From: Parcubacteria group bacterium RIFCSPLOWO2_01_FULL_48_18
GTDB lineage: Bacteria > Patescibacteriota > Minisyncoccia > UBA6257 > WO2-01-48-18
Direction: 5' to 3'
DNA: 42,284 nt
Assembly: GCA_001824435.1 (NCBI GenBank)
Contig: MHXH01000029.1
Location: 1 to 42,284 of the forward strand
The notes beneath the pieces are model-generated. The model saw nothing but the letters and a program-made list of their open reading frames with translations, made no database searches and was not told the DNA's origin. Shown here in pieces: positions 27,247-41,838 of this stretch. The position numbers and the translations under genes were made by a program. Within the stretch, counting starts at the first letter, position 1, and every line of letters begins with the position of its first letter.

Positions 27247-28650
27247 TTAGAGTTTTCCGGCTACGCGGGTAAAAAATTCTCTCATGCGTGTATCGATGTC
27301 GCCTGCGCCCATGAAGATAATGCAGCGTCGGTTTAAGTTTTTTTTGTTTTGAAGCCGTTGTATTACCGAGGCGAATGACGGGAAATATTTGGCGCGATCT
27401 ATTTTTTCCGCAAGCTCTTTGCTCGTTTTCATTCTGCCCCGGTATTCCCGGCCGGCAACTTGATATGTCGGGAGAAGCCATAGTTCGTCGGCGAGATCAA
27501 ACGCGTGGACGAAATCATTAAATAATTTTGTCAGCCGATCGATTTGGTGCGGCTGATAGATAACCAGTAGTTTTTTGTTCGGATGTTTTTCGCGAAAGGC
27601 CGCAAGCGTTGCTTTAATTTCGGTCGGATGATGAGCATAATCGGAATAGATTAAAGCTGAAGGGTTAAGGTTGGAAGTTTTTGGACCGCCATTGATCTTA
27701 AATCTCAAATTTTTAATCTTTAGTTGTTCCATTCTGCGCCATGCGCCGCGGTAGCGCGAGAGTGCTTCCCGCGCGATTGATTTTTTGACGCCAAGCAGCT
27801 TGGCTGCCTGCCATGCGGCTTCGGCATTGATCTGGTTGTGGATACCGGGAATCTGAAGCGGCCATCGTCGCCCCCCTCTTTTTATACGAGCTTGACTACT
27901 CGCATATTCGCGCGAATAAGTGAATGGTTTTGAATCCGTTTTTATGCCGAAATAAACTACGCATGATTGTGTCTTTTGCGTCAAGAATCGCGAGTTATTA
28001 TCATGTTTATTGAGAATCAGATAGCCTTCTTTTGGTAGGCGGGCCGCATATTGAGCAAAAGCTCGTTTTACGCCGGATAGATTTTTATACGTATCCAGAT
28101 GTTCGCGATCAATGTTGGTAACGATCGCTATTGTGGGAAAGTAGTGTAAAAAGGCCCGCGCCCATTCGTCCGCTTCAAGAATGAGGTAGCTGCTTTTTCC
28201 CGGCCGGAAATTGCTGTTACCGAATTCTTTAAGCTTAGTGCCAAGGATAACCGTCGGATCAAAGCCGGCCCGTGCTGTGATGAGGGCAAGCATTGCGGCG
28301 GTGGTGCTCTTTCCGTGGCTGCCGGAGACGGTGATGGCGAAGTAGCGTTTGGTTATCTCGCCGAGGGCTTCGGGATAGCTTTGGGTTTTTATGCCGAGAC
28401 GGCGAGCTTCGATAAGCTGCGGATTGTCGGGCCTGACAGCGAGGGAATAGATTATCAAGTCGCATGATGTTGCGGCGGCAGGACGCGCGTGGTTGCCGAT
28501 ATACACTTGTATGCCGGTTCTTTTAAGGTCATCGGTAATTTCTGAAGCGGTTGAATCTGATCCGCTCACGCGCCATCCCCAATGCAAAAAAGCGCGAGCC
28601 AACGCGCTCACGCCGATGCCGCCGATCCCGATAAAATGCACATGCTTCAA
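27247..28650 (-). CDS. murC: UDP-N-acetylmuramate-L-alanine ligase
   Basis: A 467-aa Mur ligase that adds L-Ala to UDP-MurNAc, the first peptide step of peptidoglycan. The N-terminal Rossmann motif is HFIGIGGIGVSALA (4-17), the ATP loop is GSHGKST (110-116, usually GTHGKT), then EADEWARAF, VTNIDREHLD and DYAHHPTEI (338-346). Residues 311-333, LKIKNLRFKI followed by NGGPKTSNLNP, fall between RRMEQ and IYSDYAHHP, where MurC normally has only a few residues; they are coded by an AT-rich short repeat. The start MKHVHFIGIGG fits the family. Together with the PBP gene it shows that the organism makes a cell wall. Confidence 0.95.
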   Translation of the reverse strand: MKHVHFIGIGGIGVSALARAFLHWGWRVSGSDSTASEITDDLKRTGIQVYIGNHARPAAATSCDLIIYSLAVRPDNPQLIEARRLGIKTQSYPEALGEITKRYFAITVSGSHGKSTTAAMLALITARAGFDPTVILGTKLKEFGNSNFRPGKSSYLILEADEWARAFLHYFPTIAIVTNIDREHLDTYKNLSGVKRAFAQYAARLPKEGYLILNKHDNNSRFLTQKTQSCVVYFGIKTDSKPFTYSREYASSQARIKRGGRRWPLQIPGIHNQINAEAAWQAAKLLGVKKSIAREALSRYRGAWRRMEQLKIKNLRFKINGGPKTSNLNPSALIYSDYAHHPTEIKATLAAFREKHPNKKLLVIYQPHQIDRLTKLFNDFVHAFDLADELWLLPTYQVAGREYRGRMKTSKELAEKIDRAKYFPSFASVIQRLQNKKNLNRRCIIFMGAGDIDTRMREFFTRVAGKL

Positions 28651-28718
28651 AGATTAAATCCGAAGCGCGAAATCCGAAACCCGAAACAGTGTCGGGGAAC
28701 GATATTCGAATCTCGAAC

Positions 28719-29366
28719 TCACTTACTGAAGTATCTATCAAATTCCTTCATTGATTCTATAAATTCTTGGTTGAGAGCGTTGATGTTCCGAATTTCTCTG
28801 TTGATCTCGTCTACACGGGTTTGAATTTCTATGCCCGGGGAAGCCACGCCATTAAGATGTGCTTTCAGTTTAAGTCGCAATTCTTCAAGAAGCTGAGACA
28901 AGAGCTGGCTGTAAGAGATGAGTTTATTGATCAGTTGTACCTCGGCTAAGATTGCTCCCTGCGCTTTTGTCTGTGCTTCGGGAGGATATACCTGTTCTAG
29001 ATTTCTGAGCATTACTTCCAGCTGTTTGGAAAGACTAACCGCACTGTCGGCAACCGCCTTGTTTTCTTCTAGGGCCCGCGCGGACAAATCCAGCGCCGCT
29101 CGATAGTCGCCGCCGACATCATACGTGGATATTAAATACAGGCGGTCGTTTGATTCGCTGACGACATCAACGATTTCCTGCGCGATCAATGCTCCTTGAA
29201 GCCGCGCCGCGTTGAATTCGTTCGGCACATGAGGACGCGGGCCGGCAAAAAACGTCCACGCGCCATACAGTAAAAAGCCGGCGACAATTGCAGTCGCGAC
29301 AGAACGGAGATGTCTTTTTCGAATGCGGAAAGAGAGTACGCCGTCCATGATCATAGGAATTTGCAT
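28719..29366 (-). CDS. Membrane-anchored coiled-coil protein, 215 aa
   Basis: I do not recognise this protein. After a basic start (FRIRKRHLR) there is one membrane helix, SVATAIVAGFLLYGAWTFFAG (about 21-41), then an all-helical exterior with long stretches of Leu, Glu and Gln: EENKAVADSAVSLSKQLEVM and ELRLKLKAHLNG. The orientation should be N-in, C-out. In-frame ATGs at residues 5 and 7 could be the start instead, and no ribosome binding site decides. It lies upstream of murC on the same strand with a 68-bp spacer made of short repeats, so a link to envelope functions is possible but unproven. Confidence 0.72.
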   Translation of the reverse strand: MQIPMIMDGVLSFRIRKRHLRSVATAIVAGFLLYGAWTFFAGPRPHVPNEFNAARLQGALIAQEIVDVVSESNDRLYLISTYDVGGDYRAALDLSARALEENKAVADSAVSLSKQLEVMLRNLEQVYPPEAQTKAQGAILAEVQLINKLISYSQLLSQLLEELRLKLKAHLNGVASPGIEIQTRVDEINREIRNINALNQEFIESMKEFDRYFSK

Positions 29367-29464
29367 TTTTTATCATCATACACGGTGTCCAAAAAAAATC
29401 AACCCAGAAGAAAGAAATGGTGGAGCACGCAAAATCAAAAATTGTTCGGAAAGTCTTATCTTGG

Positions 29465-29535
29465 AGCGGGATACCAGAATCGAACTGGCGTCTACTCCTT
29501 GGAAGGGAGTCGTACTGCCACTGTACTAATCCCGC
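29465..29535 (-). tRNA. tRNA-Gly (TCC)
   Basis: Acceptor GCGGGAT/ATCCCGC with discriminator T as usual for Gly, anticodon loop CTTCCAA (anticodon TCC), T loop TTCGATT. CCA is not encoded at the end as defined; the following bases read CCA by chance or as a remnant. Confidence 0.92.
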
Positions 29536-29560
29536 AAATGTCGTCGAAGTTGATATACGG

Positions 29561-29602
29561 GGCTTGGAGGGCAGTCATAATGGCCACTATACGACGGCCC
29601 GC
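29561..29602 (-). pseudogene. tRNA-Gly-like 5' half
   Basis: The 42-nt sequence begins GCGGGCCGTCGTATAGTGGC and runs through a D arm to an anticodon-like CTCCAAG. It then diverges: there is no matching 3' anticodon strand, T arm or acceptor. It lies 25 bp upstream of the intact tRNA-Gly on the same strand and shares its layout. Confidence 0.6.
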
Positions 29603-29695
29603 AAAATGATGTTTTCGCAGATGCATAAGCTGTACGTGATGGATTATACCAGGGGGCAACCAGCGGTTGCAATTTAAGCCGAAAACGACAAATAA

Positions 29696-31225
29696 TTACA
29701 CAACCAGTTTTTCGATTTCTTCATCTGACAGCTGCAAAAAGTTTTGTGCAAGTAAGACTTTAACGATCTTATGTTTTTCTTCAAGGGTTAAAAACTGCTC
29801 TGGACCGCCCGAGGGCTTTCCTGCCGCAAGCCATTTCTTAAAACAATCGCCATAACTTTCGAGCGGAATTCTAATCAAAACAATATCATCAACCGGCCGC
29901 TTCACATACCGCAAGTATTTGGATTCGGCAATGTGCTTGCGCGCCTCCCCAATCTGTCTTTCCTTATCAAACAATATCGAATTGAGTTTTGTGATTGTAA
30001 ACTGTATGCCGACCCTTCTTTTATTCTCAACGTATGCTTCTCGCATCATATCCTCACTTTCAACTGCAACGCCGCGGCGCTTTTGGGGTATCACCAATTT
30101 AAAATCATATTTTAACTCGGTGTCTTCCAGCGCATTTGAGTTTTCTATTCTAAAGCCGTATTTTGGATGAGCATATTCAAGACGAGTTAAAAATGTTTTC
30201 ATCATCCGTTCGGCTATGATGCCGGCACTGACTTTGATATTTTGTTCGATGGCTTCAACCGGAACATGGTCAATGCCGAACGAAGTTCCTTCTCGTTCAG
30301 CCAACTCTTCGTCAAAAGATCTTTCGATACGGTGGCGGGCTTCCGTGATATCGGAAAGTTTTCGTAGGCGCCGCCATAGATGATCAGGAACGGATACGTC
30401 CGGCCGATACATGATGCCCCATACGTAATCTGCAACAACATCGCCCTCGCCCACAACTTTTTGATTTCCGTCTTTCATCACAAGCAATGTGCCGCTGGAT
30501 TCATCGTATGAAAGAGTCCGCCTTCCCCCTCGTTCACTGCTTGTATAATCTTCTTTCCTGTCAATTGCCCGAAGACGCCCCTTCAGTTTTTGCATCTCGC
30601 CTTGCTTTTTTCTCTCAAATCCTAAAAGCACGTTACGTTTATGCACATACGAATCAAATTCTGACTGTTCATTGGACGAAAGCCGAATTCCTTGGTTCGT
30701 TTTTACTACTATAGCCTGGACGCGCTCCGGCAGAACATCATATTCGATAAGCAATTGCCCGATTAAGTATTTGCGCTTTTTGCTTCTGGAGTTAACCTTA
30801 GAACCTTTTATATTCCGCATTCGCTCGGGCGAAGAAACCTGTTCGGCCACAAGCATTTGAGAATTCACCGAATCAACCAGAAGCAGCGCCTCTCCAAAAC
30901 ATACCTCTTCTTGCATGACGTCAGAATCCGATTCCCCTCTCCCATTCCGCAACGACATGCTATATTTCTCGCCCAAAAGTCCTTGCCGTTCGGCCCTGTG
31001 TTTATAGGGGAAATCGTATTTTTTTTGCCACCATTCCTGAATAACAAGATCCCGCCTGCGCTGTTCTTCCGGCGCAACACGTTCTCCCTGTAAGTATCTT
31101 TCGATAAGCGGTCGATCTTCTTCAGCAAATAACGCTAAATCGGCATTCAATTCCATAGAAGTTGCTTCGCGCATGGACCGTGGCGGTACCGCTTTTTGCG
31201 ACTCAGAACCTCTTTCGAGCATCAT
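29696..31225 (-). CDS. Uncharacterised 509-aa protein, possible nuclease-like core
   Basis: I do not recognise a named family. The N-terminal half is charged and helical, with stretches such as LIERYLQGERVAPEEQRRRD. In the second half, DTELKYDFKLVIPQKRRGV followed by KRRVGIQFTIT (about 370-425) resembles the core of PD-(D/E)XK nuclease-like folds, which often show D, then (K/Q)F near a strand reading IQ; this is weak. TATAAT lies only about 12 bases before the first ATG, so translation may start at that leaderless ATG or at later Met codons (residues 18 or 24). It is complete, with no signal or membrane segment, and stands alone between tRNA-Gly and the Hsp20 gene. Confidence 0.72.
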   Translation of the reverse strand: MMLERGSESQKAVPPRSMREATSMELNADLALFAEEDRPLIERYLQGERVAPEEQRRRDLVIQEWWQKKYDFPYKHRAERQGLLGEKYSMSLRNGRGESDSDVMQEEVCFGEALLLVDSVNSQMLVAEQVSSPERMRNIKGSKVNSRSKKRKYLIGQLLIEYDVLPERVQAIVVKTNQGIRLSSNEQSEFDSYVHKRNVLLGFERKKQGEMQKLKGRLRAIDRKEDYTSSERGGRRTLSYDESSGTLLVMKDGNQKVVGEGDVVADYVWGIMYRPDVSVPDHLWRRLRKLSDITEARHRIERSFDEELAEREGTSFGIDHVPVEAIEQNIKVSAGIIAERMMKTFLTRLEYAHPKYGFRIENSNALEDTELKYDFKLVIPQKRRGVAVESEDMMREAYVENKRRVGIQFTITKLNSILFDKERQIGEARKHIAESKYLRYVKRPVDDIVLIRIPLESYGDCFKKWLAAGKPSGGPEQFLTLEEKHKIVKVLLAQNFLQLSDEEIEKLVV

Positions 31226-31390
31226 TATGCAATTATACTATCCTATATTTAGAAATCCGTCACGTTATGCGAAGTTTCATTTCTACAGTACATCGGCGGT
31301 CCTCTGGCCAAAAGCCCAAAAGGACTTCCTTGGGAGCAGCTTGGATGTGATCCGACTGATTGATCCCCTCAATGGATCATCAGGGTAATC

Positions 31391-31408
31391 AAAAAACCCC
31401 CTTGGGGG
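31391..31408 (-). terminator. Terminator of the hsp20 gene
   Basis: Minus strand CCCCC-AA-GGGGG (31397-31408) followed by TTTTTT (31391-31396). Confidence 0.82.
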
Positions 31409-31454
31409 AATTCGTCGGTCGGTTTTTTATCCGCGCCATTCAAAGAGAAATTGA

Positions 31455-31976
31455 TCACGCAGGGGTTTTTACCTTCAGTTTTTTCGTTTTCTGTTTTTTG
31501 ATTTTCGGGAGCCGTACGGTCAGGATGCCGTTTTTAAGTTCTGCGGTTGCTTGTTCGCTGTCGACGTCTTGCGGCAGAATCACGGACCGTGAAAACCTTC
31601 CCCAGTATAATTCTTGATAGAGGTAGTCTCTTGTTTCCACCGATTCTGATTTTTCTCTCCTGCCGCGGATCGTCACCATCTCATCGGTAACGCTTACTTC
31701 TAGATCTTCCGGAGCAACGCCGGCAATGGTCGATTGAATAATGATCTCATTCGGCTTTTGGTACACGTCGATGGTAAGCTGTCCTTCGTCTCCGCGCAAC
31801 TCGTCGTCTCCGAAAACGCCCTCCTTTTCCTCGTCCTCATTATTTTCGTCGTCGTCCGTTCCTTGCATGACTGCAGCTGATGCTGAACCGTGGTCTGTTT
31901 TTACGGACACCAAATCGGCGTGCGGCGCAGGGTCGGTGCTTAAGTCCTCGAAAAATTTTTTAATTTCTTCATCCAT
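31455..31976 (-). CDS. Small heat shock protein Hsp20 (alpha-crystallin)
   Basis: About 173 aa. The alpha-crystallin domain spans roughly residues 66-160: QLTIDVYQKPNEIIIQSTIA, GVAPEDLEVSVTDEMVTIRG, YLYQELYWGRFSRSVILPQ and the closing ELKNGILTVRLPK. The N-terminal region is unusually acidic (TDDDENNEDEEKEG), and the C-terminal tail is Lys-rich without a clear IxI motif. It should act as an ATP-independent holdase. The frame opens at a TTG at 31994, next to the prsW stop, but the ATG at 31976 is more likely. The gene follows prsW by 18 bp and ends at a strong terminator, so the two are probably co-transcribed. Confidence 0.92.
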   Translation of the reverse strand: MDEEIKKFFEDLSTDPAPHADLVSVKTDHGSASAAVMQGTDDDENNEDEEKEGVFGDDELRGDEGQLTIDVYQKPNEIIIQSTIAGVAPEDLEVSVTDEMVTIRGRREKSESVETRDYLYQELYWGRFSRSVILPQDVDSEQATAELKNGILTVRLPKIKKQKTKKLKVKTPA

Positions 31977-31994
31977 TGGGTTCCGGTTTCTCAA

Positions 31995-32738
31995 TTATAC
32001 GCTCGGGTTCTGCGACGGATGGAAATGTTTCGCCTGCCGTGGGTACCCCTTAATTTTCTCAAAATCATGCAGCACTACTGCTGCTACGATCACCAGTAAC
32101 AGAGTAGAATAGTATATCTGACCGGGTCCATATGTAATAATAAGGTAATTAAAGAAGGCATGCAAGAGGGTGGCACATAAGAGGCCTAGGGCAATAAAAT
32201 GCTTTTCCCGCCTTTGCGCAATCCCCAACGCCCAATAATATCCTACAATTGCCGAAGCGAGCGTGTGCAGCAATGTGGCGCCCACGAATCTAAGCGAGAT
32301 GGTTTCGAACACCCCGCCGATGAGGCTGCTCTCCATAATGCCGGCGGTTAATCCCTCTTGGATGTCGCCGACCGCAAACAGGATATTTTCAGCAGTGGCA
32401 AATCCAAGGCTTGCCACCACCATATAAATCATGGCATCGACCGCTTCGTCGAAATATCTGCTTCTGTGAATACTTGCGTAGGTGGCGGCAAATTTAAGCA
32501 CCTCTTCGATGATCGCAAGCCCCGTCAATAATGCAATGGGCGTCTGCCAGCCGAGCAGCTTGAGCGCATTGAGATAGCCGATTTCTAAACCAACGGCAAG
32601 AAAGGTAACAATTCCGCCGACGAGAAATACGTATACAATAAGCCGTCTCGGTTCAGGGTGTGGATCTTCCTGCAAATAGAAAATCAGCCACGCAAATCCG
32701 GGAAGAATGCCGAAAATAATCGCAAGAACGAGAAGCAA
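31995..32738 (-). CDS. prsW: PrsW-family intramembrane metalloprotease
   Basis: A 247-aa membrane protein with about seven hydrophobic helices. The PrsW motifs are present: EE at 78-79 in LAIIEEVLKFAATY, YFDEAVDAMIY (95-105), GFATAENILF (112-121), and His158 and His193 in later helices. These residues form the probable metal site. Related proteins cut anti-sigma factors or related membrane substrates under stress; the substrate here is unknown. The start appears to be TTG at 32738 with no good ribosome binding site, and the region before it is a low-complexity AGCTTGTAGCTT-type repeat that begins right after the valS stop. It lies between valS and hsp20, all in one direction. Confidence 0.85.
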   Translation of the reverse strand: MLLVLAIIFGILPGFAWLIFYLQEDPHPEPRRLIVYVFLVGGIVTFLAVGLEIGYLNALKLLGWQTPIALLTGLAIIEEVLKFAATYASIHRSRYFDEAVDAMIYMVVASLGFATAENILFAVGDIQEGLTAGIMESSLIGGVFETISLRFVGATLLHTLASAIVGYYWALGIAQRREKHFIALGLLCATLLHAFFNYLIITYGPGQIYYSTLLLVIVAAVVLHDFEKIKGYPRQAKHFHPSQNPSV

Positions 32739-32786
32739 TGAGAGCTTTTTAGCTTTTTAGCTTTGCTACAAGCTACAAGCCAATCT

Positions 32787-35336
32787 TTAATTTATTTGTT
32801 CTACCATCAGCAAGTTTTTGTCCGTGATCGGGATGAAAGAGTAAATATATTCTGTTGCAAATGGCATAAATGGGTGCAGTATTTTGAGCTGTTCCACAAG
32901 AAGGGCAAGTAAAAATAATTTTGCGTCGATTCCTTCTTTATCCTTGAACTCTTCAATCGCCCGGTCGCAAAATCGATGCCAGAAAAAATCATATAACCGG
33001 TGCAACGCGTGGCCGAGGCGATATGCAGCAATATCCTTCTCCATTGATTGTACCATTCTTTTATATTCTCTATATATTGTTGATGCGTTTTTGTCGCGTG
33101 CGGGAAATTTCAAGAGCGTGCTGCCGAGTTCTTTTTTTGTTGCTTTTTTCCCATCCAGGCGCATCAGCACAAAACGGCTCGCATTCCATAATTTGTTGGC
33201 GAATTTTTTACCCGCGATCAACGCTTCCTCGCTCCAGCGGATATCTTGCTGTCCCATTGACTGCCAGATAACGGCGAAGCGGAGCGCGTCTGTGCCGTAT
33301 TGTTCGATGAGCATGAGCGGATCCACTCCGGTGCCAAGGCTTTTGGACATACGCTTGCCTTCTTTGGTAAGAACAGTGCCGTGAATTAAAACAGTGTGAA
33401 ATGGCGGTTGTTGTTTAAATTCTGTTCCTGAAAAAATCATCCGTGCCACCCACAGGTTTAAAATGTCGCGCGCCGTTACCAGCACATCGGTCGGATAGTA
33501 TTGTTCCAGGTCGCGTTTGCTACGCGCGGCAAACGGCCATAGCGCGGACGAAAACCATGTGTCTAGCACGTCCGGGGTTTGAGTAAGATTTGTTCCGCCG
33601 CACGCGGGGCACTTTTTGGGTTTTTCAGAAGATACAAGAATATTTCCGCATCCCTCGCGCGAATGTTTCTCAGTTATCGGCGTGAATGAGTATGTATACG
33701 TTATTACGATCGTGTCTAAAGTTACTTTTCTGTCAGGATTATAGCGCTTAAATGCGGTGATAATGTCTTTGGTTGTTTTATACAGCGTGCCGTGCGATGG
33801 GTCCGTCATTGGAACAAGGTCCGCGACCCTTGTTTGTTCAATCTCCGTAATAATACCGTATCCAAACAACGCTTTCGTTTGGCTATTTTCAAAAGCGACT
33901 TTGTCGCCGACATTGAGGCGATGGTCGCGGACCCGATGCGTTTTTGTTTTTTTTCCGCCGAGCACCTGCGGCACGATACGTTCGTTAAAACCCATAACGG
34001 GCAGACGCGCTTCGGCCAATCCACAATACCACGCCGGTATTCGGTGTCCCCACCAAATTTGTCGCGAGACGCACCAATCTTTTATATCTTTCAGCCACGC
34101 AAAATAAGGTTTCTCGTAGTTTTTAGGAAGGATTTTCACCTTTCCCGATTGTACTGCTTTATATGCCATTTCGCGAAGCGACATCTGCGTTTTTTGACCC
34201 CGAGGACGTTCCCGCATCCTAACAAACCACTGATTACTCCTCTGCGGTTCAAGCGCTCCGCCGCACCGGTAGCAAATGGCGAGATTGTGCGAGTACTCCT
34301 CTTCTTTTTCTATAAGATTCTTTTCGCGCAACATCCCAGTAACTCTTTCCCGGCACTCGTCCGTTTTCAAATCTTCGAATAGTTCGCCTGCATGCGCAGT
34401 CATCCGGCCGCGTTCATTTATGATATCGAGAAACGGGAGGGTGTGGCGCTCCGCAATTTCGGCATCGAGCATATCATGCGAAGGAGTGACCTTCACGGCG
34501 CCGGTTCCGAAATCCTGCTCGACACCCTTATCCGTAATAATCGGGATCAAACGGTCGTGAATCGGCAAAAGAACATTTTTACCTACATACCCCGTATAGC
34601 GCGCATCTTTAGAGTGTACCGCAACCGCGCAATCTCCGAGCATGGTTTCCGGACGCGTTGTCGCAACAACGATATAATTTCCCGATTCGTTCTCAATCGG
34701 ATAACGAATGTAATACAGCCGCGCCTTTTCTTCTTTATATTCGATCTCAAGTTCGGAAAGGCTCGTGCCGCAACGAGTACACCAGTTTACAACGCGCTTT
34801 CCCCGATAGATCAATCCTTTATTGTAATAGTGGGTGAAGGCGTTTTTTACCGCCTCTGCATACGCCGGATCCATGGTAAATCTATTACGCGACCAATCGC
34901 ATGAATTCCCCAGGAGGCGCTCCTGGTTTTCAATAACTGCGCCGTACTTTTGCTTCCACTCCCAAGTTTTTTCAATGAATTTTTCTCTACCGAGACCGAA
35001 CCGCGAAACGCCTTGTTTACGGAGCTCTTTTTCAACGACATTTTGCGTCGCGATTCCCGCATGGTCAGTGCCGGGAAGCCAGAGCGCACGGAATCCTCGC
35101 ATCCGATGCCAGCGCGTAAGAAGGTCTTGAATTGTTTGATCGAGTACGTGGCCGATGTGAAGCGAGCCAGTCACGTTCGGAAGCGGCATCAAAATAACGT
35201 ATGGTTTATTTCTCCGTTTCCCCGTTTCTCTGTTTCCCCGCTTTGGTAGCTTATCTGGATTGAAATAGCCGGATTTTTCCCACCGGGCATAAATTTCTCG
35301 CTCCACGTTTTTCGGATCATATGCCTTATCAAGCAT
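32787..35336 (-). CDS. valS: Valyl-tRNA synthetase with an internal ASCH-like insertion
   Basis: An 849-aa class I synthetase. HIGH is at 60-63 (PNVTGSLHIGH), KMSKS is RMSKS at 662-666, and the editing domain shows TTRPETMLGD. One zinc knuckle is NWCTRCGTS. The second ribbon is unusual: Cys438 (AWYC) is separated from Cys563 (GCGNIL) by about 124 residues, then comes Cys576-Cys579 (CPAC). The inserted part (33651-34022) looks like an ASCH domain. Without it the core has about 725 residues; the protein ends soon after HPFMPFATEYIYSF and lacks the C-terminal coiled coil of other ValRS. A repeat of four 8-bp units (35209-35240) codes the linker RGNRETGKRRN before KPYVILM. The ATG at 35336 begins the normal start region. 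Confidence 0.95.
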   Translation of the reverse strand: MLDKAYDPKNVEREIYARWEKSGYFNPDKLPKRGNRETGKRRNKPYVILMPLPNVTGSLHIGHVLDQTIQDLLTRWHRMRGFRALWLPGTDHAGIATQNVVEKELRKQGVSRFGLGREKFIEKTWEWKQKYGAVIENQERLLGNSCDWSRNRFTMDPAYAEAVKNAFTHYYNKGLIYRGKRVVNWCTRCGTSLSELEIEYKEEKARLYYIRYPIENESGNYIVVATTRPETMLGDCAVAVHSKDARYTGYVGKNVLLPIHDRLIPIITDKGVEQDFGTGAVKVTPSHDMLDAEIAERHTLPFLDIINERGRMTAHAGELFEDLKTDECRERVTGMLREKNLIEKEEEYSHNLAICYRCGGALEPQRSNQWFVRMRERPRGQKTQMSLREMAYKAVQSGKVKILPKNYEKPYFAWLKDIKDWCVSRQIWWGHRIPAWYCGLAEARLPVMGFNERIVPQVLGGKKTKTHRVRDHRLNVGDKVAFENSQTKALFGYGIITEIEQTRVADLVPMTDPSHGTLYKTTKDIITAFKRYNPDRKVTLDTIVITYTYSFTPITEKHSREGCGNILVSSEKPKKCPACGGTNLTQTPDVLDTWFSSALWPFAARSKRDLEQYYPTDVLVTARDILNLWVARMIFSGTEFKQQPPFHTVLIHGTVLTKEGKRMSKSLGTGVDPLMLIEQYGTDALRFAVIWQSMGQQDIRWSEEALIAGKKFANKLWNASRFVLMRLDGKKATKKELGSTLLKFPARDKNASTIYREYKRMVQSMEKDIAAYRLGHALHRLYDFFWHRFCDRAIEEFKDKEGIDAKLFLLALLVEQLKILHPFMPFATEYIYSFIPITDKNLLMVEQIN
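33651..34022 (-). other. ASCH-like domain coded inside valS
   Basis: Residues 439-562 of ValRS. FNERIVPQVLGGKKTKTHR followed by LNVGDKVAFE, GYGIITEIEQTRV and a final VTLDTIVITYTYSF follow the ASCH layout (GxKT.T.R, GD, strand, closing strand with F), the same order as in E. coli YqfB. The Lys-Thr-x-Thr-x-Arg core is intact. The Glu reported for YqfB catalysis has no clear counterpart. Confidence 0.7.
35209..35240. repeat. Four 8-bp tandem units in valS
   Basis: TTTCTCCG, TTTCCCCG, TTTCTCTG, TTTCCCCG on the plus strand, in the part that codes the linker before the HIGH region. Confidence 0.8.
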
Positions 35337-35472
35337 TGTTTATAGTATAGCGAGAACTGCTTAAAATTCCAGGCAGAAACTCAATCTTCACAAAGGCCTT
35401 GCATGGAAGACAAGAATTTCGTATTATCCCATTAGCTGCTCAACAAAATCTCAAAAATGGAGGATATACGCA

Positions 35473-35928
35473 ATGGATATTATTGTCGCGGCCATCATTG
35501 TAGTTGGACTGTTTGTTGATGCCATTTTTGGACTAAGGGCAGCGATCGGAGTTGTTGCTTTCCTTATTGTATGCGTCGCGCTTCTTCTTTTTTTCAACTC
35601 CCCGTTCTATGAAGATATCAAATGGAGGCGATGGAAAAAAGGGGCAACCCGCGCGATCGACAGTGGCAGGGTAACGCTGTGCGCAATCTGCAATGATCAT
35701 GTTTTCCCGAACGATTTCGTTGCCGAAGCATTCGTGGGAGACGACCCGACCCCAAAACTCATACATGCCGGATTCCACTATTCCATGAAAGAACGCAGTG
35801 CATTTTGTGCGATGGGCGCAATCGGTACCGGCTTCTGGGACGGGGAAAAATTCGTCAAGACCATGACCGAATCCACGGCTCAAGCGGCAATACGCACCGG
35901 AGAGGCGCAAGTCGGACCGCAAGAATAA
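35473..35928 (+). CDS. Small membrane protein with soluble C-terminal domain, 151 aa
   Basis: Two hydrophobic segments lie at residues 2-20 and 22-41 (VAFLIVCVALLLFFN), followed by a soluble domain of about 105 residues. It contains CAICNDHVFPNDFV (Cys-x2-Cys, a possible zinc knuckle), AGFHYSMKERSAFC and GTGFWDGEKFV. A further Cys makes three in the domain, so metal binding or a disulfide is possible. I do not recognise the family. TGGAGGATATACGCA gives a good ribosome binding site for the ATG at 35473, and a terminator follows at 35929, so it is a single-gene unit divergent from valS. Confidence 0.75.
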   Translation: MDIIVAAIIVVGLFVDAIFGLRAAIGVVAFLIVCVALLLFFNSPFYEDIKWRRWKKGATRAIDSGRVTLCAICNDHVFPNDFVAEAFVGDDPTPKLIHAGFHYSMKERSAFCAMGAIGTGFWDGEKFVKTMTESTAQAAIRTGEAQVGPQE

Positions 35929-35952
35929 ACCTCCGCACGCAGGGGGGTTTTT
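35929..35952 (+). terminator. Terminator of the 151-aa gene
   Basis: ACCTCC and GGGGGT pair, with wobble, around GCACGCA, followed by TTTTTTA. Confidence 0.7.
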
Positions 35953-35993
35953 TATTTAAGACTCAAATTCGCCTTTCGGTGGGCTCAGCGAAC

Positions 35994-36053
35994 TTATAAG
36001 TTTAAATTCGCCCTTCGGTAAGCTCAGGACGAATTTATAAGTTTAAATTCGCC
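35994..36053. repeat. Direct repeat of 19 bp, period 41
   Basis: TTATAAGTTTAAATTCGCC occurs at 35994-36012 and 36035-36053, and AAATTCGCC with its flank TTCGGTGGGCTCAG also occurs at 35965. The second copy is the end of the tsaD remnant, so its 3' end appears to have been copied in tandem. Confidence 0.7.
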
Positions 36054-36139
36054 TGCGCTTTGAGTGGGCGTCTTTTATTTTGAAGCCAGTTTATATAACT
36101 TGCAGCCGCGATCATTGCGGCATTGTCGGTATTGAATTT
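36035..36139 (-). pseudogene. Remnant of a second tsaD 3' end
   Basis: Read on the minus strand this codes KFNTDNAAMIAAASYINWLQ, then NKRRPLKAQANLNL and a stop. The intact tsaD at 37831 ends in a related stretch, KFNTDNAAMIGVAG and onward, finishing NLNL and stop; 22 of 34 positions are the same. Upstream the similarity ends, and TAA precedes the first ATG, so no full gene is left. The divergence is too high for a recent copy: it is either an old duplicate or the end of a foreign tsaD. Stretch 35929-36236 holds only the terminator, the repeats, this remnant and a hairpin. Confidence 0.8.
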
Positions 36140-36191
36140 TTTTGCGCAACTCTTCATTTATAAAAAGACGCAACAGGTTTTTTTAGTTAAA

Positions 36192-36219
36192 GGACTCTGG
36201 ATCGCATGATCCAGAGTCC
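36192..36219. repeat. Perfect 12-bp hairpin
   Basis: GGACTCTGGATC-GCAT-GATCCAGAGTCC. Read leftwards it lies 18 bp after the zinc-ribbon gene end at 36237 but lacks a T tract, so it is a 3' stabilising hairpin or a protein site more than a classical terminator. Confidence 0.7.
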
Positions 36220-36236
36220 GAACAAGTCCCCGATTC

Positions 36237-36470
36237 TCAACCTCTTTCGAATAATCCCCTGAGGCCGTTCCGTAGTTTGATTATGAAGCGCGTACCGCAG
36301 TGGGGACAGAGGACCGGAATTTCTCAGTGCGGCTCCACCGGCTTTTCTCCCCACGTTCGAACGTAGAAACCATACTGGTTTTCATCCTCGGCCCACTCAA
36401 AGAAAGGGTGGCAGCCCCCGCCGTTGCATGTTCTGAGCCGTAACCGGAGCTTCAGAACACCTTTTAACAC
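36237..36470 (-). CDS. Small zinc-ribbon protein interrupted by an in-frame UGA
   Basis: AAGGAAAGG precedes a GTG at 36470. The first 48 codons give LRLRLRTCNGGGCHPFFEW and then WGEKPVEPH, followed by TGA (36324-36326). The same frame continues EIPVLCPHCGTRF, then IIKLRNGLRGLFERG and TGA at 36237-36239, 76 residues plus the UGA. The Cys pair before the stop (C-x4-C) and the CPHC after it would complete one zinc ribbon, as in the upstream 113-aa gene (C-x10-C and CPLC). So the gene was, or still is, one protein across the stop. A nonsense mutation (Trp to stop) is simplest; readthrough is possible. TGA is a normal stop elsewhere in the window. It forms an operon with 36491-36832. Confidence 0.6.
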
Positions 36471-36490
36471 AACCTTTCCTTGTGAATGGA

Positions 36491-36832
36491 CTACTTTTCT
36501 GGGTTAATGTGCCACTCTGGAGTAGCGCCGTCGCTGAAACCGTCCCAGATCGCTTTTCTGCGGCTTGCGGCCGTGTCAAGCTTTTCCCAGATCGAGTCGG
36601 GAACCCCTACCATGTTATATTTCCCGCATAGCGGACATTGAGCGGCAAGATAATAATGCGGGAAAAATGAGCCGTACCAGCACATCATCACAAGGTCTTT
36701 TGCGGCAATCTCTAATTTGGCCCGACAACCAGTCGTATCGTACTTGTCTTTCTTGGCGCAGACAACCTTAATTCTCCACTGTTTAACGCTTACCTTCACG
36801 ATCTTCACTTTCCCAGCTTTAACGACCCTCAT
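36491..36832 (-). CDS. Zinc-ribbon-like protein, 113 aa
   Basis: The N-terminal 20 residues are basic with alternating Val and Lys (RVVKAGKVKIVKVSVKQWRI). Next come Cys25 and Cys36 (VCAKKDKYDTTGC), an intervening 29 residues and CPLC (66-69) in AAQCPLCGKYNMVGVP. The spacing fits a zinc ribbon. The C-terminal part, DSIWEKLDTAASRRKAIWD, is helical. It resembles the following gene in layout, and 20 bp separate the two, so this may be a duplicated pair in one operon. The promoter (36879-36907) is a perfect consensus, followed by a palindrome at the expected start of transcription, so expression is probably strong and controlled. Function unknown; nucleic acid or protein binding is likely. Confidence 0.78.
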   Translation of the reverse strand: MRVVKAGKVKIVKVSVKQWRIKVVCAKKDKYDTTGCRAKLEIAAKDLVMMCWYGSFFPHYYLAAQCPLCGKYNMVGVPDSIWEKLDTAASRRKAIWDGFSDGATPEWHINPEK

Positions 36833-36856
36833 GGTGTTTCCTTGTTAAGGTACGTT

Positions 36857-36872
36857 GTTGAACCGCTTCAAC
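36857..36872. promoter_or_regulatory. Operator-like palindrome
   Basis: GTTGAA-CCGC-TTCAAC, about 7 bp downstream of the minus-strand -10 box, at the expected transcription start. A repressor bound here would block the zinc-ribbon operon. The divergent TrmB-type gene is a candidate. Confidence 0.5.
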
Positions 36873-36878
36873 AGTATA

Positions 36879-36907
36879 ATTATATTCTGAAACAAGCACT
36901 TTGTCAA
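36879..36907 (-). promoter_or_regulatory. Perfect sigma-70 consensus promoter
   Basis: Minus strand TTGACA (36902-36907), 17-bp spacer, TATAAT (36879-36884), driving the zinc-ribbon operon. Confidence 0.85.
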
Positions 36908-36943
36908 TAGTAAATAGTACACTGTCGACTTTTCTCAACAATA

Positions 36944-36952
36944 TGTTATACT
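36944..36952 (+). promoter_or_regulatory. Extended -10 promoter of the TrmB-type gene
   Basis: TG-T-TATACT at 36944-36952, 20 bp before the ATG; no clear -35 box. Confidence 0.55.
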
Positions 36953-36971
36953 TAAAGAAAGAGGAATATCC

Positions 36972-37748
36972 ATGATAACTATTTTAAGAAAAGTATTTAG
37001 CGATCTCGGCCTAAGCGATAAAGAGATCCAGGCAATGTTTGTTCTGCTACAAGAGGGAAGTCTTAGGGTTCCTGCGGTTGCGAAAAAAGCCCGCCTGAAC
37101 CGGACCACAACGTACGGTATTTTGAAGTCGCTCACGGAGCGGGGGCTTGTATCGTCCGCCGATCGCGGAGGGATTATCGAATATCAATCCATTCCGCCCA
37201 GCCACATCATTCCGTTCATTGAGCGCAAGCGGGACGAGCTGCAAGACCGAAAAGATGAAATTAAAGAAATATTGCCCGAACTAAAAAAAGTACGGGAAAA
37301 AAGAGATATTTTGCCGCGAATCAGATTTTTTGAAGGGATTGAGGGAATTAAACAGGCATACGAGGACACGTTAGAAAATAACAAAGAAAAAAAACTTCTT
37401 GATTTTACCGGAACCGATGCGATTTTTAAAAAAATGGACAAGGGATGGATTGAATATTATGTGAAAAAGCGGACTCGGCTTAGCATCAAATGTATTGCTA
37501 TTGCTCCTGATACGCAATGGTCGCGGGTTAGCCAAAAAAGGGACGGCGAACTGCTTCGCACCACAAAACTATTGCCCGAAAAATATACGTTCGACACCGA
37601 AATCGATATTTATGATAACAACGTAGGAATATTTTCGTTCTCCGAGGATCAGCCGATAGCTATCCTTATCGAAGATGAGAAAATCGCGCATACACTAAAA
37701 ACCCTATTTTATTATACTGAAAGTACTCTCGACCAAGATCAAGATTAA
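36972..37748 (+). CDS. TrmB-family transcriptional regulator
   Basis: A 258-aa protein. The N-terminal winged helix-turn-helix spans about residues 5-75: LGLSDKEIQAMFVLLQEGSL, VPAVAKKARLNRTTTYGILK and SLTERGLVSS are typical of TrmB. A coiled-coil helix follows (80-115, ERKRDELQDRKDEIKEILPE), then a phospholipase-D-like or sugar-sensing C-terminal region (RFFEGIEGIKQAYEDTL and on), without a clear ligand pocket. TrmB proteins repress or activate sugar or metabolic genes. It is transcribed divergently from the zinc-ribbon operon, whose promoter carries an operator-like palindrome, so it may control that operon and itself. AGAGGAA before the ATG is a fair ribosome binding site. Confidence 0.88.
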   Translation: MITILRKVFSDLGLSDKEIQAMFVLLQEGSLRVPAVAKKARLNRTTTYGILKSLTERGLVSSADRGGIIEYQSIPPSHIIPFIERKRDELQDRKDEIKEILPELKKVREKRDILPRIRFFEGIEGIKQAYEDTLENNKEKKLLDFTGTDAIFKKMDKGWIEYYVKKRTRLSIKCIAIAPDTQWSRVSQKRDGELLRTTKLLPEKYTFDTEIDIYDNNVGIFSFSEDQPIAILIEDEKIAHTLKTLFYYTESTLDQDQD

Positions 37749-37830
37749 GACTTGCTGCGGCGGCTTTTGCCCGGCTCTAAATCCCCACTTGCTAAAGTTA
37801 CGGCGGGTAGGCGTACGAATGGTAGAATAG

Positions 37831-38982
37831 TCACAAATTCAAATTCCCCTGTGCTCTGATTGCGCGGGTTTTATTTTTTAGGTACTGCATATACCCCGCA
37901 ACACCGATCATCGCGGCGTTATCGGTGTTAAATTTGAACGGAGGAACGAAAAAATTAGCGCGTAGCTTGCGGCTTGCAGCTTGCAGCGCCCTCCGTAAAG
38001 CCCTATTTGCCGCGACCCCGCCGGAAAGCATAATTGATTTCGCGCCATACTCCCGTGCCGCGCGGACTGTCTTTGTAACGAGGACGTCGATTACTGCAGC
38101 CTGAAATGAAGCCGCAATATCGTTTTTGAGCGTAGAGTGTTTAACGTTGAACACTGAGGGCGATAGTTCTTTCATATAGTAAAGAACGGAGGTTTTGAGG
38201 CCGGAAAAGCTGAAATCATAGTCTTTCGCGTGAATCATGGGTCGGGGAAATGATATCGTATCGGCCCTGCCCTTGCGGGCGAGTTTTTCAAGCTCTGCGC
38301 CGCCGGGATACGACAGATGAAGCATGCGCGCAACTTTATCAAACGCCTCGCCCGCGGCATCATCGCGCGTTTCTCCAAGCTTGTACCATTTGGCAAGCGA
38401 CTCCATCAAAACCAGAATTGTATGCCCACCGCTCACCAGCAATGCTATTGCTGGAAATTCGAAATTCGAAATTCGAAATTCGAAACCATCCAATCTTCTT
38501 TTCGCACTTCGTGCTTTATGCGTCGTGCCCGCAGCTTTCTTTGATAAAAGAAAACTGTAGAGGTGACCCTCAAGGTGATTGACGCCGACTGCCGGTACGT
38601 CCAATTCTCTTTTTAATTTTTTTGCGAATTCGATGCCGGTCCAGAGCGCCGGCTCAAGGCCGGGACCAACGGTTACGGCCAATAGATCAAATTTACCCCT
38701 CGGTCCTGTCCTCGACCCTGAGGCTCGAACTCGAAAAAGGCTCGGGGTCGAAGGAGAATTTTGGAAAACCCTTTTCAAAACTATCGGGAGGTTCTTGATA
38801 TGTTCGCGCTTCGCAAGATTAGGAACGACACCGCCGAACGGCGCGTGAATTTTTACCTGCGATGAAACGACGCTTGATACAATCCTGAATTTCGGCGCGC
38901 GCAGCCCGCCGGATGCTTCCACAAGGGCAATCGCAGTTTCGTCGCACGATGTTTCAATGGCTAAGATATTCATAAGATTCAT
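37831..38982 (-). CDS. tsaD: tRNA N6-adenosine threonylcarbamoyltransferase TsaD
   Basis: A 383-aa ASKHA-fold enzyme that transfers threonylcarbamoyl to A37 of ANN-decoding tRNAs. Motifs: ILAIETSCDET (6-16), VVPNLAKREH, metal ligands His136 and His140 in VNHLEGH, ALLVSGGHT, GEAFDKVARML, YPGG, the conserved DYDFSFSGLKTS and KFNTDNAAMIG. It is about 40 residues longer than usual. The extra residues lie at 77-97 and 148-177 and coincide with short repeats, including four exact GAAATTC units (38454-38481) coding FEFRISNFEF. The ATG at 38982 follows AGGAG at a good distance. A decayed second C-terminus of the same family lies at 36035-36139. Confidence 0.95.
   Translation of the reverse strand: MNLMNILAIETSCDETAIALVEASGGLRAPKFRIVSSVVSSQVKIHAPFGGVVPNLAKREHIKNLPIVLKRVFQNSPSTPSLFRVRASGSRTGPRGKFDLLAVTVGPGLEPALWTGIEFAKKLKRELDVPAVGVNHLEGHLYSFLLSKKAAGTTHKARSAKRRLDGFEFRISNFEFPAIALLVSGGHTILVLMESLAKWYKLGETRDDAAGEAFDKVARMLHLSYPGGAELEKLARKGRADTISFPRPMIHAKDYDFSFSGLKTSVLYYMKELSPSVFNVKHSTLKNDIAASFQAAVIDVLVTKTVRAAREYGAKSIMLSGGVAANRALRRALQAASRKLRANFFVPPFKFNTDNAAMIGVAGYMQYLKNKTRAIRAQGNLNL
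38454..38481. repeat. Four exact 7-bp tandem units in tsaD
   Basis: GAAATTC repeated four times without change. The total of 28 bp is not a multiple of 3; the larger insertion around it keeps the frame. Confidence 0.85.
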
Positions 38983-39941: not shown

Positions 39942-41696
39942 TCAGGACACTTCTGTGTTGTAGCAATCTTCGCAAAGCAACTTCGGGTATTTTTCAACTT
40001 CTCTAGGGGACAAAAGCGTAGCTCCGCACTTTCCACAGCGCCGATCGTAGAATTTGAGGCGCACTGCATAAGGTTTCCGAAAACGGAAAATTCGTACAAT
40101 TGGATGTTCTCGCGGCAACGCAAGGCCATTCCTTCGGTAAAAATCCAACTCATAGGGCATGATTCGAAAATAGCGATTATTCGCAGTATCGTGCACTACC
40201 CTTGTGAGAATATCGTCGTCTACCGCGCGAATATCAAGCGGCAAATCATCTCCGTGAATGACGGCGGCTCCGTTGTCGGACGGCCGTTCTGCGGAATTTT
40301 TAACATCGCTCACGTCGTAACCAAACTTTACAGCGCGAGCATAGTCGTCGAAACCGGTGTAAGAAGTTGCAAACGATATTTTATATGGAATAGGCATGAG
40401 GGCCGGCGGAAAAAACTCTCCGTACTCACCGGTGGTTAACATCGATGTTTTAATATGATCAACAAGTTTCCAGTATTCTTCCTCCGTATACTGTCTATTC
40501 AGGATACAAAAAGATTTATTCTCAAGCCCGATACAGCCAAAGCAATAGCTGCAATTTCGGCATAAGTCGCAGTACTCGACCTCGCGACAGTTGTCGATTT
40601 GAGATGAAAGTTTTACGCCATAATTCCCGCTCGTACTGACAGTCATAAGTTCATAACAGAGTTCTCCTCCGCCACCGCCGACAATGTCGCAGGAGTCTCG
40701 GTAATCGGTGAGCCCCAAAGAGTAGTTCACCCCCACCGATTTCATTACATACAAGGAAAAGTAACAGTTTTTTGAATCCCGATTGTAATCTCCAAGGCAG
40801 TTGACGGTACGAATATTATTGTCAACTTTATAAAGTGCGCCTCGTTTGATTTTGGCGAACTCGGCAACATATTTTTGAACCTCGTTGTAATTCCCAAGAT
40901 ACACTCCCCGCATATGCTGCTCATATTCTTCTTTCGAAAGTTGTTTATTTCGAAAACAGTATTTCTTGTTCCTTAGATTTGTAGACATAAAACAGCGATC
41001 ACAGTTCCGACAATCGAAAAGGAACGCACTCTCAAGGCAATTCGAACACTCTTCACAGAAAAAGCAATGATATGAGTTTGTGATGTCGCGGCAACTGTAG
41101 CAGTTCGTTGAGTTCGTGAACGAGTTCCCGTCAACACAGTCCATGCTTCGATCGTGGCCATCAACATAGTACAAATTCTCCCCGCTCAGCGTGTTGAAAA
41201 CCAAATAGCAATTTTTGAGATTCGACGACGTGTTTGTATAATCACTTCCAATGTTCGTGGGGTATGTAATGAGGTTTGGCCGCGGAACTAATTTTTGAAG
41301 TTCGGAAAATTGGTTGAAAAAACCTTTACTTGCAATCCATTGATGCCCAAATGAGATCGGGTCCCACTTGTCAGAGCGCCACACCTGATGTTCGTAAATT
41401 TTGTACGGCGTCTCCGGAGGATAAGCGGCAATGATCGGCTTCTTGCTCCACGCAGACGTTATCCGAAATATGTTGTATGAGTTTTCGTAGGCCGATAAGC
41501 GTCGCCATCGCTCGTTCGGATGAAGCGTCGGCAAAGGAACCCCAATCCGTTTATAAAATGCGATATCTTCGGGCCGGATGTAAAATTTCTCGCCGGAGAA
41601 CCGGCATTCGCGCCACACTCCATCCTGCTTTTCGAGCCTGAGATTCGTGAAATACTGAGCAAGCGTCCTATTGAATTTTGGTGTTTCTTTTGCCAT
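39942..41696 (-). CDS. Cys-rich repeat protein with duplicated end modules, 584 aa
   Basis: I know of no functional description. Residues about 38-66 (KFYIRPEDIAFYKRIGVPLP then THPNERWRRL-like) recur at about 506-540 (RYFRIMPYELDFYRRNGLAL then PREHP), so the same module stands at both ends. Between them are two Cys-rich repeat blocks: 160-260, ending KKYCFRNKQLSKEEYEQ, and 300-412, ending KSFCILNRQYTEEEYWK. Each has many short N-C-Y/C-x2-C units, like the turns of a beta-solenoid that could bind several metals. A zinc ribbon closes the protein (Cys554, 557, 575, 578). The frame opens at an ATG at 41714, but GAAGGGC upstream of the ATG at 41696 fits a ribosome binding site. There is no signal peptide. 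Similar proteins are, to my memory, frequent in this phylum. Confidence 0.78.
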   Translation of the reverse strand: MAKETPKFNRTLAQYFTNLRLEKQDGVWRECRFSGEKFYIRPEDIAFYKRIGVPLPTLHPNERWRRLSAYENSYNIFRITSAWSKKPIIAAYPPETPYKIYEHQVWRSDKWDPISFGHQWIASKGFFNQFSELQKLVPRPNLITYPTNIGSDYTNTSSNLKNCYLVFNTLSGENLYYVDGHDRSMDCVDGNSFTNSTNCYSCRDITNSYHCFFCEECSNCLESAFLFDCRNCDRCFMSTNLRNKKYCFRNKQLSKEEYEQHMRGVYLGNYNEVQKYVAEFAKIKRGALYKVDNNIRTVNCLGDYNRDSKNCYFSLYVMKSVGVNYSLGLTDYRDSCDIVGGGGGELCYELMTVSTSGNYGVKLSSQIDNCREVEYCDLCRNCSYCFGCIGLENKSFCILNRQYTEEEYWKLVDHIKTSMLTTGEYGEFFPPALMPIPYKISFATSYTGFDDYARAVKFGYDVSDVKNSAERPSDNGAAVIHGDDLPLDIRAVDDDILTRVVHDTANNRYFRIMPYELDFYRRNGLALPREHPIVRIFRFRKPYAVRLKFYDRRCGKCGATLLSPREVEKYPKLLCEDCYNTEVS

Positions 41697-41838
41697 GCGT
41701 TCTTGCCCTTCCATTGTATAATCGTTCCGCCCTGAAGTAAATCCGCCAAGCGGGCAAAAATGGAGGTAGTGGGTTCGCGTAAGGGATACGATGACCCTAG
41801 TTTTAACTTCGGCTCCGAGGAAATCTCGGCTATTCTTA

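Follow-up and report, generated by a model that had tools for sequence, protein, structure and literature searches.

Aminoacyl-tRNA synthetases (aaRS) are usually held to gain domains slowly and vertically, once per lineage. They have been named as frequent hosts of domain insertions (PMC13114784). The ASCH superfamily is marked by the octapeptide G-x-K-x-x-[ETS]-x-R, and its YqfB-type proteins showed no tRNA binding in EMSA (PMC9599836). In Escherichia coli YqfB, an N4-acetylcytidine (ac4C) amidohydrolase, Lys21, Thr24 and Arg26 are each essential, and replacement of the general acid, Glu74, by alanine lowers kcat on ac4C by a factor of about 1000 (PMC6972931). ZmASCH of Zymomonas mobilis binds and cuts ssRNA (PMC5615036). 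Herein, we describe an insert, almost certainly an ASCH domain, in the valyl-tRNA synthetase (ValRS) encoded by contig MHXH01000029.1 of Parcubacteria group bacterium RIFCSPLOWO2_01_FULL_48_18, the whole of which (42,284 nucleotides) is referred to as the window.

The ValRS of the window

A ValRS of 849 aa is encoded on the minus strand at 32787..35336, as judged by the ORF, curated models and a genome search. It scored 891 and 824 bits against the NCBIfam valine--tRNA ligase equivalogs NF004349 (cut-off 704) and TIGR00422 (cut-off 612), and it is the sole ValRS of the 1.21-Mb genome, the remaining class I matches being IleRS and LeuRS. The HIGH motif (residues 60-63; 35148..35159, minus strand) and the columns of the CP1 editing domain are invariant in the ValRS alignment, and the KMSKS-type motif reads KRMSKS (residues 661-666; 33339..33356, minus strand). 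An AlphaFold model of the whole enzyme (pLDDT 85.8, pTM 0.79) matched the tRNA-bound ValRS of Thermus thermophilus (1gax) with a VIA Z score of 38.6 and 46% identity over 687 aligned residues. No C-terminal tRNA-binding arm was found by Pfam search.

The CP3 zinc ribbon lies directly ahead of the DTWFSS motif and reads WYC438-(124 residues)-C563-x12-C576-x2-C579, compared with merely 20-50 residues or so for the ribbon of insert-free relatives. The stretch 34005..34067 (minus strand) comprises the conserved upstream flank, SRQIWWGHRIPAWYC, in which Cys438 is the first of the zinc ligands, and then GLAEAR, the linker; the remainder of the ribbon, with Cys563, Cys576 and Cys579, lies at 33600..33650 (minus strand). 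Since the second knuckle is Cys576-x2-Cys579, the window ribbon has all four cysteines. The window ValRS is an intact, genuine, single-copy enzyme, normal apart from the insert.

The neighbours of valS (27247-38982) encode a Mur ligase, HSP20, a PrsW protease, a TrmB-like regulator and TsaD, and have no evident link to ASCH. Two minus-strand ORFs of the window, 29696-31225 (509 aa) and 39942-41714 (590 aa), matched no Pfam family at E<0.001.

Identity of the insert

The entire segment between Cys438 and Cys563 (residues 439-562; 33651..34022, minus strand), delimited from the ORF and the alignment, consists of an ASCH domain with short linkers and is open, in frame and without a stop. The domain itself spans residues 445-556 (33669..34004, minus strand), as placed by Pfam, AlphaFold, Foldseek/VIA and an alignment of 28 sequences. 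The earlier note, made from the DNA letters alone, had put an ASCH-like insertion of about 124 residues at 33651-34022, between Cys438 and Cys563 of the zinc ribbon; its coordinates are exact and the gap is 124 residues, with the four ribbon cysteines kept.

Pfam ASCH (PF04266) matched the isolated insert at E=0.0015 with 19.7 bits, just missing the curated score of 21.2, and matched an archaeal eL32 fusion (L067), 48% identical to the insert, at E=1.2e-6 with a passing 29.6 bits; ten of the 28 subfamily members matched at E<0.1. The window copy has the superfamily octapeptide as GKKTKTHR. With the 28-sequence alignment as input, AlphaFold folded the 114-residue ASCH segment at a mean pLDDT of 91.8, and the same order of strands and helices recurs in the full-length model, within the ValRS fold that matches 1gax. 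The top Foldseek matches of the domain model in the PDB, and all of the clear ones, were ASCH proteins, the best (E 2.5e-6) being YqfB with bound ac4C; ASCH-type matches comprised YqfB, ZmASCH, PH0355 and EF3133. VIA superposed the insert on E. coli YqfB with a Z score of 13.3 and 2.1 A over 100 residues at 15% identity. A sequence search of the PDB with the 28-member profile matched no aaRS and no ASCH protein, so the fold comparison is the only informative one with the PDB. Collectively, this evidence leaves little doubt that the insert is a compact, self-contained ASCH (PUA-like) domain at the tip of the first CP3 ribbon hairpin, beside a ribbon that the model leaves intact, which are features that the earlier note had named as support.

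Other origins of the segment were considered and rejected. For an intein, Pfam gave no intein family up to E=10, and the junctions, AEAR/LPVMGF and TEKH/SREGC, carry no splice motif. A group I or II intron or other structured RNA was rejected because Rfam found only tRNAs in the window and the insert keeps an open frame. A phage origin found no backing in a search of 2.9 million viral contigs, which returned no relatives.

Distribution of the ASCH subfamily

A scan of 84,980 GTDB species genomes yielded 28 loci, comprising 20 ValRS, three C-terminal fusions to eL32 and five free-standing genes, and a phylum survey of 380 genomes added one further ValRS carrier (L091). Within the order of the window genome, six of 244 genomes, the window genome included, have the subfamily in a ValRS. 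The search of patescibacterial ValRS that the earlier note had proposed places the insertion in about 22 ValRS overall, widely scattered over the phylum, and leads beyond that note to a second ValRS site, to eL32 and to free-standing genes. Every ValRS carrier that has a name belongs to the Patescibacteria, in which many lineages are represented (Curtiss-, Levy-, Roizman-, Berkel-, Colwell-, Lipton-, Nomura-, Doudna- and Gribaldobacteria). Most have the domain in the ribbon hairpin (site 1), ribbons without cysteines among them; three (L064, L072 and L076) have it in the loop that follows DTWFSS..WPFxTL (site 2), where L092 holds an ASCH domain of a different type. The frames are open and undecayed in all complete ASCH-ValRS carriers. 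A link with the zinc cysteines (16/21 versus 25/53, p=0.04 without phylogenetic control) was not relied on. The eL32 fusions belong to DPANN archaea (L062, L067 and L068; two Aenigmatarchaeota, AR5) and lie within or near ribosomal protein gene clusters.

The free-standing genes encode about 110-120 aa, and one of the five from the 84,980-genome scan is frame-shifted. In seven genome contexts the DNA of the free genes is 81-95% identical over 318-381 bp between unrelated flanks, the shared stretch covering the ORF and some tens of bases beyond it, and dN/dS among four free copies is about 0.04-0.2. One free gene (L069, 3381-3902) sits between REP-like hairpins and adjoins a Y1 (IS200-like) transposase; another (L074, 2074-3860) is found among three copies of GGTTCTAAYATCGTCCACGACCCGCAAC, one behind each small gene. 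The free form is, judging by this DNA, a mobile single-gene unit.

An integron cassette was considered as the vehicle, since GGTTCTAAYATCGTCCACG repeats around L074 hinted at it; no attC-like palindrome was seen there, and the repeat motif is limited to a few copies. The arrangement at L074 and L069 looks cassette-like, yet without attC structure. In Kuenenbacteria, a free gene (L085, 3471-3683 and 3619-3832) is split by a frame shift, either through decay or through an assembly error.

Histories of the domain and its hosts

The ASCH subfamily has moved across ValRS lineages and across the two ValRS sites, and also to eL32 and to a free-standing gene. When 74 ValRS cores were placed on a tree after removal of the ASCH residues, ASCH presence took 14 changes; ASCH was among the criteria by which the sample was selected, and gains are inseparable from losses. 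Site-1 carriers take 15 changes, against a mean of 15.5 for shuffled labels, and thus show no extra clustering; at least 12 changes are forced by well-supported branches. Close ValRS pairs with and without the domain occur as well (L081/L105, and L092/L108 for another ASCH type).

In the ASCH tree, built from 112 columns, a site-1 domain from Colwellbacteria (L061) grouped with the three site-2 domains (L064, L072 and L076) at a support of 99/97, and another site-1 domain (L078) grouped with free genes at 98/95. By AU tests the ValRS cores reject the ASCH clade {L061, L064, L072, L076} (p 1.1e-5) and others too. Conversely, the ASCH data reject the ValRS-derived groups {L059, L072, L076} (p=0.008), {L059, L063, L072, L076} (p=0.001), {L060, L064, L077} (p=0.0004) and {L064, L077} (p=0.03). 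The AU groups that come from the ASCH tree were picked with that tree already in view, a weakness of which the following correlation test is free: over 190 pairs, ASCH identity and ValRS-core identity correlate with a rho of -0.01, compared with 0.22-0.69 for eleven control segments of the core, equal in length, each set against the rest of the core. Segmental recombination carrying ribbon and ASCH together was rejected because the identity of the flanks, within 20 columns, does not track that of the ASCH domain. Given that the two trees conflict under AU tests, the domain appears to have moved by itself; that it moves INDEPENDENTLY of its host, with a mobility of its own, is well supported by these comparisons and highly probable.

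Pocket residues of the ASCH subfamily

The 28 subfamily sequences, drawn from ValRS, eL32 and free genes and mostly 41-52% identical to the window copy (minimum 38%), share 13 invariant columns, which include K463, T466, R468, D471, D512, H515, Y519 and Y547 (window ValRS numbering). When the 28-member profile was compared with single YqfB by hhalign, a helix alone was aligned, so residue equivalence to YqfB rests on a 43-sequence MAFFT alignment. There, Lys21, Thr24 and Arg26 of YqfB correspond to K463, T466 and R468, all invariant in the 28; the Lys-Thr-x-Thr-x-Arg core that the earlier note had read as intact is present in the window as GKKTKTHR, with its K, T and R shared by every member.

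The counterpart of Glu74 behaves differently. Its column is locally ambiguous in the MAFFT alignment, and under any local alignment none of the 28 members has a conserved Glu in this place or close to it, whereas the aligned GHE motif retains its Glu in most of the other ASCH domains, free or inserted in LeuRS. The catalytic residue that had first seemed unclear is in fact absent. This weakens the proposal of an added enzymatic step, considering the loss of activity of YqfB Glu74Ala, and makes YqfB-type hydrolysis by the insert unlikely. It appears from these residues that the pocket is retained and the known YqfB chemistry is not, so that a ligand- or RNA-binding pocket is likelier than a hydrolytic one. 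With a net charge of -2 to +13, the ASCH domains are variable and only mildly positive, so that RNA binding is not evident from composition. Since the same pocket is conserved in the ValRS, eL32 and free contexts, the job of the domain would not be specific to valylation. Binding rather than hydrolysis is a plausible function, with the chances about even, and the likeliest candidate role is that of a nucleoside- or RNA-binding module tied to the translation apparatus through its carriers.

Other inserts in the ribbon and in related synthetases

The ribbon hairpin slot is an insertion hot spot. A histidine phosphatase occupies the ribbon of other ValRS (L020, L064, L070 and L103) and was present in all six of the 900-1000-aa ValRS frames that were sampled; L070 has both this domain and ASCH. 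Among the longer frames of the order with a histidine phosphatase (about 1150-1270 aa), the 12 sampled were all IleRS with the domain after the corresponding ribbon knuckle, and at least 73 of 243 genomes of the order show frames of this IleRS length among the matches listed. The two IleRS of the window genome (L002, G000:C8, and L004, G000:C20) carry the histidine phosphatase PF00300 in the ribbon region, with E values of 1e-30 and 4e-30. In the LeuRS of the same genome (L006, G000:C18), an alpha/beta hydrolase (PF06821/PF00561) stands ahead of CP1 or at its start, with a NUDIX domain (PF00293) further on. The spot of that hydrolase is the position at which other LeuRS (L045, L046, L047, L095 and L100) hold, at the base of CP1, an ASCH domain of a different type, most of which keep the Glu of GHE.

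Short repeat-like peptides, such as ISNSQVPISNENLK, SSPLEGEGKGEGK, SAKATDGKP and STSAKASADK, were seen in the same ValRS loops. The loci concerned are L010, L058, L061, L082, L092, L105 and L108, in the ribbon or adjacent loops, and L006. It is as if small repeats were tolerated in frame in these loops.

Discussion

The explanation that we favour overall, at somewhat better than even chances, combines a permissive hairpin with an independently mobile ASCH binding module that has no YqfB-type hydrolysis. The ribbon hairpin would act as a permissive slot, so that aminoacylation and editing would continue as usual, while the domain would protrude from ValRS and perform a job of its own. Most likely, its conserved Lys-Thr-Arg-Asp-His-Tyr pocket would bind a nucleoside or some feature of RNA, with no amide hydrolysis of the YqfB type. 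By riding on ValRS or eL32, the module would stay expressed and near tRNA and ribosomes; the slot also takes domains without an RNA role, and tethering near tRNA may therefore be incidental.

The mobility of the domain could also mean that it has no functional link to aminoacylation at all and persists in strongly reduced genomes as a mobile or selfish domain through in-frame insertion into permissive loops of genes that are essential and highly expressed. The essential translation genes that serve as its hosts (ValRS and eL32), its two ValRS sites, its C-terminal eL32 fusions, its free mobile form, a history uncorrelated with that of the host and the free copy beside the Y1 transposase all agree with this account. 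However, the domain encodes no mobility machinery, its pocket residues are conserved as if selected for a cellular function, and no common DNA signature was found at the insertion junctions when it was looked for, which makes the account a minority view, at perhaps one chance in four. A related and slightly less doubtful, yet still speculative, idea is a mobile element at the level of the domain, which would lack self-splicing, repeatedly enter permissive loops of essential translation genes (the two ValRS sites and eL32) and travel as a free single gene. If this were true, the essential genes of reduced genomes would act as carriers of ASCH. Alternatively, the insert might bind tRNAVal, at its acceptor end or a modified nucleoside, with a gain in affinity or discrimination and perhaps in place of the lost C-terminal arm. 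PUA and ASCH domains are usually translation-associated and RNA-binding (PMC7641849), the insert sits in the ribbon of a fold that binds tRNA (1gax), and the arm is absent from 19 of 21 ASCH-ValRS. Yet most ASCH-less ValRS in the sample also lack the arm, and compensation for its loss was rejected because ValRS with ASCH and those without it have overlapping tail-length distributions; the domain is, moreover, no less conserved where it is fused to eL32 or stands free, and two different ValRS sites are used. We regard direct tRNA contact as rather unlikely.

Two further readings are less probable still. The insert might be a tethered enzyme that hydrolyses an acylated nucleoside, aminoacyl-tRNA or a by-product, with Tyr, Asp or His in place of Glu74; the invariant equivalents of Lys21, Thr24 and Arg26 would suit this, as would the hydrolase families (histidine phosphatase, NUDIX and alpha/beta hydrolase) among the other inserts. 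The absence of the conserved Glu from all 28 members, though most LeuRS-inserted and other free ASCH domains keep it, and the kinetic cost of its replacement in YqfB render this improbable. Least probable, at very low odds, is a neutral passenger, in which case the domain would be a functionless remnant in decay, lodged in a loop that accepts any insert. Unrelated domains and short low-complexity peptides do occur in the same loops, but the undecayed frames of the complete ValRS carriers, the 13 invariant residues and the confident fold speak against decay.

Under the favoured explanation of a permissive hairpin with a mobile binding module, a single module has repeatedly switched its host lineage and its position within an essential enzyme, and this repeated change makes domain mobility itself testable. 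A general feature of Patescibacteria comes to light here as well: ASCH, histidine phosphatase, NUDIX and alpha/beta hydrolase domains are lodged in ValRS, IleRS and LeuRS, which bears on the way in which functions are packaged in very small genomes. It is a warning, too, that annotation by length or by host model hides inserted domains.

Comparison with known systems

No earlier description of ASCH in ValRS was found in the openly licensed PMC literature, and novelty is unproven. The best structural match of the insert, E. coli YqfB (PDB 9kyf/9kyh), has the same length and shares the equivalents of Lys21, Thr24 and Arg26. The insert subfamily differs from it in lacking Glu74, in a variable residue at the position of Tyr89 and in sitting inside translation proteins or being fused to them. 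The ASCH fold is also common to the insert and the ssRNA ribonuclease ZmASCH (PDB 5guq and 5y6b; Z 9.8), which is a stand-alone protein of 140 residues with a basic cleft of Tyr47, Lys53 and Ser128 (PMC5615036). T. thermophilus ValRS (1gax) shares the fold of the whole enzyme with the window ValRS, whose modelled ribbon, unlike that of 1gax, is interrupted by ASCH and which has no Pfam-detectable C-terminal arm. The histidine phosphatase inserts of patescibacterial IleRS and ValRS use the same ValRS slot or the equivalent IleRS ribbon; their fold is unrelated to ASCH, and they are widespread in the IleRS of the order. Other aaRS with accessory domains (e.g., NCBIfam NF040702, ileS_w_GNAT) likewise join an extra domain to an essential class I synthetase. 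What sets the present case apart from them is that the domain is in all likelihood an ASCH domain, that it lies inside the zinc-ribbon hairpin, and that it appears to move independently of the synthetase.
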